Below are positions 49,084 through 51,596 of a DNA stretch of 64,000 nt, piece by piece. The notes under the pieces were generated by a model that was given only the letters and a program-made list of their open reading frames with translations, did not search any database and was not told the DNA's origin. A program made the position numbers and the translations under genes. Numbering within the stretch: position 1 is the stretch's first letter; each line of letters starts with the position of its first letter. This DNA comes from an uncultured Candidatus Melainabacteria bacterium (GTDB lineage: Bacteria; Cyanobacteriota; Vampirovibrionia; Gastranaerophilales; Gastranaerophilaceae): positions 1-64,000 of the forward strand of contig CANARY010000006.1 in the NCBI GenBank assembly GCA_947364235.1. Reading direction: 5' to 3'.

Positions 49084-49971
49084 TTAATTTTTTCCTCTTA
49101 ACATATCAAAAATATTTTTATGTTTTTCAACAGACTCTTCTTTTGGTTTTATCCCAAGAATAGATTCTAAGTCTGTTTTCAAAGTCATCAAATCTTCGTA
49201 TTTTTTAAGCATTCCATCCATAGTAATTGAAACATCGCCGGTTTCTTCAGAAACAACTAAACAAGCAGCATCAGAAACTTCTGACATACCAATCGCTGCT
49301 CTGTGGCGTGTTCCATATTTCCAGCTAAGCTTAGGATCTTCTGTTAAAGGCAGAAGCACTCCTGCTGAATGAATTCTGTTATTTTCAATAACCATTGCTC
49401 CATCATGAAGCGGTGTATTTGGATGAAATATCGTTAAAATCAGCTCGGTTGAAATCAAAGCATCAATTTTTGTTCCTACATCAGAATAAGCCCCTGCACT
49501 CATTTCTTTTTGGAAAACAATCAATGCCCCAGTCTTTGTTTTTGTTAAATATTTAACAGCTTCAATAATCTCTTTAATGACATCAATTTCATTAATTTCA
49601 GCTTCTCTATATGAACAGGTTGAGAATAATGCTCTTCTGATAAACCCCGGCTGGCCAAGATATCCGAGAAAACGCCTCAGCTCCGGCTGGAAAATTACAA
49701 TTAAGCTTAAAGCAATAAGAGTTACTAAAGATTTTAAGAAAACACCTATAATTCTCAAATCAATAAGAATAAGAATTTCACTAAAAATCCAGGCAAAAAC
49801 AAGGAAAAATATACCTTTTACCAGTTTTTCCGATTGAGTATTCTTGATAAATTTTTTGTAAAAAACAAGAAGAGTTATACCAATAAACGCAATTTCAAGA
49901 ATATTTACCCAATTCAAAGACCATTGAAGCGGGCTGAAAATATCTTGAATTAATGAAATTAGCGCGTCCAT
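49084..49971 (-). CDS. cdaA: Diadenylate cyclase (CdaA type)
   Basis: A 295-residue membrane enzyme making cyclic di-AMP from two ATP. Three N-terminal helices (about 20-95) precede the DAC domain. The DGA motif is at 190-192 (LHDGAMVIENNRIHSAG) and the RHR motif at 222-224 (GTRHRAAIGMSE). C-di-AMP controls osmolyte and wall homeostasis. It lies between lysA and yitT with almost no spacing. In Gram-positives cdaA sits with cdaR and glmM; neither is adjacent here, though two phosphohexomutases are in the window. Confidence 0.95.
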   Translation of the reverse strand: MDALISLIQDIFSPLQWSLNWVNILEIAFIGITLLVFYKKFIKNTQSEKLVKGIFFLVFAWIFSEILILIDLRIIGVFLKSLVTLIALSLIVIFQPELRRFLGYLGQPGFIRRALFSTCSYREAEINEIDVIKEIIEAVKYLTKTKTGALIVFQKEMSAGAYSDVGTKIDALISTELILTIFHPNTPLHDGAMVIENNRIHSAGVLLPLTEDPKLSWKYGTRHRAAIGMSEVSDAACLVVSEETGDVSITMDGMLKKYEDLMTLKTDLESILGIKPKEESVEKHKNIFDMLRGKN

Positions 49972-49973
49972 CT

Positions 49974-51275
49974 TTATCTTCTTAACCTATCAGGAATGTT
50001 GTCGTGTGATATGAGATTATCCAGTGTCTCTCTATATACTATAATATCAGAATGTGAATTATTTACAAGTACCATCGCTGGTTTTTCTACACGGTTATAA
50101 TTCGATGCCATAGAATAATTGTAAGCCCCTGTATTATAAACACAAAGAATATCTCCAGCTTCAAGCTCTGGAAGCTCGATTTCATTAATCAAAATATCGC
50201 CGCTTTCACAAAATCTGCCTGCAATTGTAACCTTTTCTTTCTTAAAATCATCTGGTTTATTAACAACTTCAGCTGTATACTCAGCCTGATACATTGAAGG
50301 ACGCGGATTATCAGCCATTCCGCCATCAACAGCAGCATATTTTCTGCCATTCGGAACTTGTTTAGAAGAACCTACAGTGTAAAGAGTTACTCCGGAAGTA
50401 GAAATAATACTTCTGCCGGGCTCAATATAAATTGTTAAATCATCTGCACTACTTACCACTTTTTTTACAGCTTCAGCCAGCTCTTCTGTGGAAGGCGGAT
50501 TATCAGAGTTTGTATACCTAACTCCTAACCCCCCGCCAATATTCATTTCGTCAAGCTTTAATCCAAATTTTTTATTTATTCGATTTATCTCTTTTACAAG
50601 AATTTCAACCTCATCAGAATAAGATTGAAGTTCAAAAATTTGCGAGCCAATATGAGCGTGAAGCCCGTGCAAATCAAGGTTTTTGTATTGTTTTTGGATT
50701 AAAGTGATTATTTCATCCATTTGTGACAAATCAAACCCAAATTTAGAATCTATCTGACCTGTTTGAATGTATTCGTGCGTATGACATTCAATCCCCGGAG
50801 TTACTCTAAGCAAAATATCAGCCTTGAGATTTTTTTCAAAAGCTATTTTATTCAAAAGTTCTGCTTCATAAAAATTATCAACAGAAAATCTTCCAACACC
50901 TAAATTAAGCGCTAATTCAATTTCTGAAGCCGACTTATTATTTCCGTTAAACAAAACTTTTGACATATCCGCACCAGATTTATGCAGTGTATAAATTTCA
51001 CCAGCTGACACCGCATCAAATCCAAAACCTTCATCATCAAGAATTCTTACAACTGCTGAAGTACAAAGCGCCTTACAAGCATATTTCATTTTTATATTTT
51101 TACACTCAGCAAACGCTTTTTTATAATCATGACAAATTCCACGCAAAGTGGCTTCATCAATTACATACAAAGGCGTTCCATATTCCTTTGCAAGCTCCAT
51201 TAAATCACACCCGCCTATTGTTAAATTTTCTTTTCTCTCCGTAGTAACCGGCCTGATATATTGATTTAAACTCAT
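49974..51275 (-). CDS. lysA: Diaminopimelate decarboxylase
   Basis: A 433-residue PLP enzyme that converts meso-diaminopimelate to lysine. The PLP-lysine segment is KMKYACKALCT (near 62-72), and the Gly-rich phosphate loop is NIGGGLGVRY. EPGRS and CESGD motifs mark the second half. The length is typical. The start is the ATG at 51275 with GAGAGG before it, but both lie in a long hairpin (51274-51337) that may restrict translation. cdaA follows after 2 nt. Confidence 0.95.
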   Translation of the reverse strand: MSLNQYIRPVTTERKENLTIGGCDLMELAKEYGTPLYVIDEATLRGICHDYKKAFAECKNIKMKYACKALCTSAVVRILDDEGFGFDAVSAGEIYTLHKSGADMSKVLFNGNNKSASEIELALNLGVGRFSVDNFYEAELLNKIAFEKNLKADILLRVTPGIECHTHEYIQTGQIDSKFGFDLSQMDEIITLIQKQYKNLDLHGLHAHIGSQIFELQSYSDEVEILVKEINRINKKFGLKLDEMNIGGGLGVRYTNSDNPPSTEELAEAVKKVVSSADDLTIYIEPGRSIISTSGVTLYTVGSSKQVPNGRKYAAVDGGMADNPRPSMYQAEYTAEVVNKPDDFKKEKVTIAGRFCESGDILINEIELPELEAGDILCVYNTGAYNYSMASNYNRVEKPAMVLVNNSHSDIIVYRETLDNLISHDNIPDRLRR

Positions 51276-51337
51276 TGTAAAACCTCTCTTATTTTATCTT
51301 TGCTTTAATCTTAACAAAATAGGAGAGGTTTTACAAT
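51274..51337 (-). promoter_or_regulatory. Hairpin hiding the lysA ribosome binding site
   Basis: Perfect 15-nt arms at 51274-51288 and 51323-51337. After one A-C mismatch, six further pairs extend the stem inward (51290-51295 with 51316-51321), leaving a loop of about 20 nt. In the minus-strand RNA the proximal arm contains GAGAGG and the first bases of the AUG. If this RNA is made, ribosome access to lysA would depend on unfolding. Confidence 0.7.
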
Positions 51338-51350
51338 AATACAGCTTATA

Positions 51351-51596
51351 CTATGCGGCTTCTTCAGTGCAGACGTACTTGGCTGACTTCGCCACAACAC
51401 CGTAACACACCATAGTAAGTCTGTTATTCAATGCCAGCATTGTCCTAAAATTATTTGCAGAGCAGTTCATCGCACTCATCATATCATCTGCAGACACTTT
51501 TGATGTCAAAGCTGCTTCATCATGATTATCAACTTTTTCCTGTGCATACTTTTCAACCAATAACTTGTCAATAAAATCTCTTGCTCCAATTGCCAT
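51351..51596 (-). CDS. Small hypothetical protein (81 aa)
   Basis: An 81-residue, mostly helical protein that I do not recognise. A central SADDMMSAMNCSANNFRTMLALNN-type helix pair and two further cysteines (VCYGVV, YVCTEE) are the only marks. AAGGAG precedes the ATG. It sits between flhA and lysA and could be the first gene of the lysA transcript. Nothing identifies it as flagellar. Confidence 0.55.
   Translation of the reverse strand: MAIGARDFIDKLLVEKYAQEKVDNHDEAALTSKVSADDMMSAMNCSANNFRTMLALNNRLTMVCYGVVAKSAKYVCTEEAA

Follow-up and report, generated by a model that had tools for sequence, protein, structure and literature searches.

A hairpin around the lysA promoter and start codon as a probable insulator against read-through transcription in a Gastranaerophilales genus

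In the fold-back inhibition known from IS10, read-through RNA from outside the element folds over the start of the transposase gene. For sigG of Bacillus subtilis, a large hairpin (over 20 pairs) has been proposed to block translation of the spoIIG read-through RNA, and transcripts from the sigG promoter cannot form this hairpin, according to the account of this gene in PMC5942855, which cites Masuda et al. 1988. In phage T4, the Shine-Dalgarno (SD) sequence of I-TevI is hidden in RNA from upstream early and middle promoters but not in late transcripts from the adjacent promoter; I-TevI and similar genes stay silent in RNA of the early and middle classes, their late promoters exclude part of the hairpin, allowing translation, and soc and e are listed as repressed by structures that hide the ribosome binding site (PMC2988022).

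Several features of these read-through-silencing hairpins recur at lysA of an uncultured Gastranaerophilales bacterium. In the window, meaning the whole stretch of 64,000 nucleotides that was analysed, the lysA SD is paired, no intrinsic terminator is called between the codirectional unit upstream and the hairpin, and the pairing covaries among relatives; exclusion of the distal arm by the gene's own promoter is predicted from an extended -10 that is conserved and sits at the apex of the hairpin. On all features tested here, and as judged from sequence, lysA would work like sigG and the T4 genes. As with sigG (PMC5942855), a chromosomal gene has its own promoter placed so that its own transcript would escape a large hairpin, but sigG is a Firmicute gene for a sigma factor of development, whereas here the lysA-cdaA unit of Gastranaerophilales is concerned, and the lysA case, unlike that of sigG, includes varied upstream genes as well as covariation and orientation evidence from many species. 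The likeness to the T4 hairpins (I-TevI, segB, soc and e) is that, for I-TevI, RNA from upstream promoters hides the SD and transcripts from the gene-adjacent late promoter escape; their role in phage timing has no evident counterpart at lysA. IS10 would share the read-through RNA folding over a start, although there a mobile element is protected against activation. The lysine riboswitch (L box) is likewise a leader RNA of lysine genes, but lysA has no Rfam match and a predicted mRNA leader of only about 26 nt.

The lysA gene (positions 49974-51275, minus strand) encodes a diaminopimelate decarboxylase of 433 amino acids (Pfam PF02784/PF00278) and is directly followed by cdaA, encoding a diadenylate (c-di-AMP) cyclase (49084-49971, minus strand; PF02457/PF19293). 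The Pfam matches confirm the identities assigned in an earlier sequence-only reading of this DNA, and the gene boundaries, with lysA ending at 49974 and cdaA starting at 49971, confirm the 2-nt gap that it described. Upstream of lysA and codirectional with it lies an ORF of 81 amino acids with no Pfam match and no assigned function (51351-51596, minus strand), whose stop is 12 nt upstream of the hairpin; flhA, also codirectional, is located beyond it. The terminator scan calls no intrinsic terminator between the 81-aa ORF and the hairpin. This ORF occurs immediately upstream of lysA in 16 genomes of the genus (70-92% identity), often following flhA. A weak terminator-like element, AATTGC...GCAATT and then T, was noticed by eye after flhA (51683-51655, minus strand), and transcription of the 81-aa ORF may therefore be separate from that of the flagellar genes.

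Folding of the RNA from 51240 to 51400 revealed a hairpin at 51339-51272 of the minus strand with 26 pairs, arranged as 17 pairs, a C-A mismatch and 9 further pairs, in which a distal (5') arm (51313-51339) is joined through a 14-nt loop (51299-51312) to a proximal (3') arm (51272-51298). The minimum free energy of this 161-nt fold is -47 kcal/mol (z -5.2), a value equalled by none of 200 shuffles. The 15 perfect pairs reported previously are indeed present (ATTGTAAAACCTCTC/GAGAGGTTTTACAAT, 51337-51323 with 51288-51274), as are the single mismatch (51322/51289) and the inner pairs, and folding lengthens the helix to 17 plus 9 pairs. The proximal arm contains the SD, GAGAGG (51283-51288, minus strand), and the AUG (51275-51273, minus strand); the proposed burial of the SD agrees with the fold, in which 4 of 4 SD positions and, in addition, 3 of 3 positions of the AUG are paired. 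A comparison of start regions in about 718 kb of this genome showed that lysA has the longest start-codon helix among the 439 genes tested, with 16 uninterrupted pairs by a strict count against 12 for the runner-up; the expected number of helices of at least 12 pairs in the class of lysA is about 0.08. Apart from its reverse complement and a single match of 23 nt, the hairpin sequence is unique in the genome, and a repeat family or mobile element was rejected on the grounds of this single-copy state. A search of the hairpin region against Rfam at both thresholds gave no match at the gathering score and nothing credible, the weak sub-threshold matches being mostly hairpins of miRNA precursors, in line with the earlier statement that no lysine riboswitch is visible.

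A putative promoter coincides with the hairpin. Its predicted -35 element, TTGTAA (51331-51336, minus strand), lies within the distal arm and is common to most close relatives, where it precedes the -10 by 17 nt, as in the window, or by 16 nt in two of them. The predicted extended -10, TGT-TAAGAT (51308-51316, minus strand), follows the motif TGnTAnnnT, which is found 60 to 15 nt before the start codon in 56 of the 62 lysA leaders of the genus, compared with a mean of 7 and a maximum of 18 shuffled leaders in 200 trials. TAAGAT is a mediocre -10, which counts against an insulator with the promoter inside the hairpin. Most of the -10 hexamer falls in the loop, as does the predicted transcript start (51299-51303, minus strand), some 6-8 nt past the -10 at about 51301. 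All hairpin-bearing leaders have the -10 at the hairpin apex and the distal arm within the spacer that separates the -35 from the -10, and the proximal arm takes in most or all of the SD in every hairpin-bearing relative. With start sites assigned by motif, the lysA transcript of each species that has the hairpin is predicted to begin in the loop; such an mRNA would lack the distal arm and could not form the hairpin, so that only transcripts entering from upstream would be able to fold.

Taken with the comparative results below, the most probable explanation is that the inverted repeat insulates the lysA-cdaA unit against read-through. The -35 and the spacer of the lysA promoter would form the distal arm, with the -10 at the apex, and the gene's own mRNA, starting in the loop, would carry only the proximal arm and keep its SD free. 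Polymerase arriving from a codirectional gene upstream (in the window, the 81-aa ORF) would produce RNA with both arms, which would fold and hide the SD and AUG, leaving lysA untranslated from such RNA, and cdaA would be insulated together with lysA. Three or four lineages have a U-tract behind the stem, and there the hairpin probably also terminates the read-through RNA. Our conclusion is that read-through RNA is kept silent chiefly because the hairpin conceals the start site, and that some species use termination as well.

The comparison across one Gastranaerophilales genus was based on 62 lysA leaders out of 65 genomes, and a hairpin was taken as significant at p < 0.05 against shuffled distal arms together with an energy below -12 kcal/mol. 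Individually significant hairpins, with varying arm sequences, were found in 20 of the 62 leaders; the upstream neighbour is codirectional in all 20, and no significant hairpin occurs in the 22 leaders whose upstream gene is divergent (Fisher p 9.4e-6). Phylogenetic independent contrasts gave the same association of hairpin with neighbour orientation (t -5.5, p 1.1e-6), and about 12 changes of orientation can be placed on the lysA tree. Since the presence of the hairpin depends on which way the upstream gene points, it would act on read-through RNA and not in response to lysine status. In hairpin species the upstream stop is 50-94 nt before lysA wherever the gap could be measured. The upstream genes, assigned by ORF length, differ among these species and include the 81-aa ORF and, with labels read from sequence, an AAA ATPase, a glucanotransferase-like gene and a large repetitive protein; persistence beside such different neighbours indicates that the hairpin goes with lysA and not with one neighbour. 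A clear upstream intrinsic terminator is present in just one hairpin-bearing species and in 4 of the 18 codirectional species without a significant hairpin; for the remaining 14 of these no terminator was called either, which counts against the insulator. The cdaA gene is located 3' of lysA in 60 of the 62 loci, and contig ends truncate the other two. As it follows lysA with or without the hairpin, the suggestion that the hairpin governs lysA-cdaA coupling was not upheld. In other genera of the family, the lysA leaders show a promoter-like -10 and no hairpin despite codirectional neighbours, and insulation is thus not universally needed.

In the MAFFT alignment of hairpin leaders the promoter is aligned and the proximal arms are not. 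Due to these misaligned arms, sister comparisons gave only a handful of clean compensatory changes, and an arm-swap permutation was used along with them in place of a covariance model, comparing the pairing of each species' own two arms with that of arms exchanged between species. The codirectional set comprised all such species except near-identical ones (n=33), with no selection by pairing. Their own pairing averaged -14.6 kcal/mol versus -10.3 kcal/mol for permuted arms (z -8.6), a difference reached in 0 of 5000 permutations. For 21 divergent species the own pairing was weaker than the permuted one (-7.2 versus -8.9 kcal/mol; z +3.1). Complementarity has therefore been kept through sequence change only where the neighbour can transcribe into lysA, and the conservation of pairing in related genomes, which the sequence-only reading had singled out as a check, was found in codirectional species. 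The weaker pairing in divergent species suggests that structure at the start site is avoided where insulation is unneeded, although a composition effect could be an alternative cause of the z of +3.1.

These results bear on the other explanations of the repeat. CU-rich and GA-rich stretches always pair partly, as the average of about -10 kcal/mol for permuted pairs illustrates, and a chance match of a pyrimidine-rich promoter spacer with a purine-rich ribosome binding site would account for some pairing, but own arms surpass all 5000 permutations in codirectional species and fall short of permuted arms in divergent ones, and chance may be practically dismissed. A palindromic DNA operator for a repressor acting over the lysA promoter would fit an inverted repeat that surrounds the -10. 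However, the arm sequences vary among lineages while their complementarity is retained, the repeat is missing from species with a divergent neighbour that have the same promoter, and an operator need not follow neighbour orientation, all of which renders this explanation highly improbable. Translational control of lysA's own mRNA, with a ligand, a protein or temperature opening the hairpin, was the proposal of the sequence-only reading, and the burial of both SD and AUG would suit it. The evidence points elsewhere: the distal arm corresponds to a conserved predicted promoter, the predicted start is in the loop in all hairpin-bearing species, Rfam returned neither a lysine riboswitch nor any other match at the gathering score, the unconserved arm sequences leave no ligand or protein site visible, and control of this kind would not predict dependence on neighbour orientation. 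The reading itself had named a transcript start inside the loop as the observation that would speak against it, and the promoter position predicts such a start. We regard own-message control as very unlikely.

More weight, though still as an unlikely alternative, is given to the hairpin being the intrinsic terminator of the upstream gene, placed in a short intergenic gap where it overlaps the lysA promoter and ribosome binding site and hides the SD as a by-product. Codirectional neighbours and short gaps are likewise predicted by this explanation; 5-7 T within 8 nt are found at the stem end in the lineages G022/G055/G051, G010/G039/G015 and G045, a T run is located near the AUG in G163, and hairpin species are slightly richer in T beyond the stem (p 0.03), indicating that termination contributes somewhere. 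A G+C-rich stem followed by a U-tract, as expected of an intrinsic terminator, was found in three or four of the 12 hairpin lineages of the genus. In 8 of the 12, however, an adequate U-tract is missing, and this includes the genome of the window, where the sequence is UUUUACAA with its U inside the stem. The earlier remark that no T run follows was nearly right, as four T do come after GAGAGG but belong to the stem, and its statement that the hairpin is not a simple terminator holds for this genome, the terminator scan making no call at the lysA hairpin. Also, the hairpin loops are often far longer than terminator loops and are arranged around the -10, and the SD, which the stem always covers in large part or completely, appears as the shared target.

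Silencing of read-through RNA by a hairpin over the ribosome binding site is otherwise known from single examples, namely sigG and T4. As the lysA hairpin is kept only with an inward-transcribing neighbour, the genus offers a clean comparative case, a natural multi-species record in which covariation maintains the structure only where the neighbour can transcribe into the gene. It adds a well-supported new example of a read-through insulator on a biosynthetic gene, within one Gastranaerophilales genus. The finding points to a need, in this uncultured gut lineage, for synthesis of lysine, cell-wall precursor and c-di-AMP independently of neighbouring transcription. It is also a warning that a hairpin which covers a start codon does not necessarily regulate the mRNA made from that gene's own promoter.

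Whether insulator hairpins around own promoters repeatedly arise and vanish as neighbours flip, as a general alternative to terminators in the compact gaps of this genus, is doubtful, and the genome-wide evidence for such a habit is mixed. Codirectional genes with gaps of 30-150 nt in this genome show excess start-region pairing even when lysA is left out (z -5.5), in a scan without a -10 requirement that includes ordinary terminators, and when a -10 within the loop was demanded, there was no excess apart from lysA. No conserved version was found across the genus for enolase or for mraY, of which 14 of 30 starts were located. Candidates for a lysA-like architecture, in which the promoter region and the SD share 8-12 perfect pairs, were noted at other genes of the same genome (G000), at C1:2413, C1:80565, C2:24495, C1:135752 and C5:17372. 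In several enolase leaders of the genus (L253, L256, L242, L261 and L263), the last ~35 nt ahead of the start contain a short hairpin, e.g. TACTCTTTT...AAGGAGTA, which hides the SD and, unlike the lysA hairpin, possibly controls the gene's own message.
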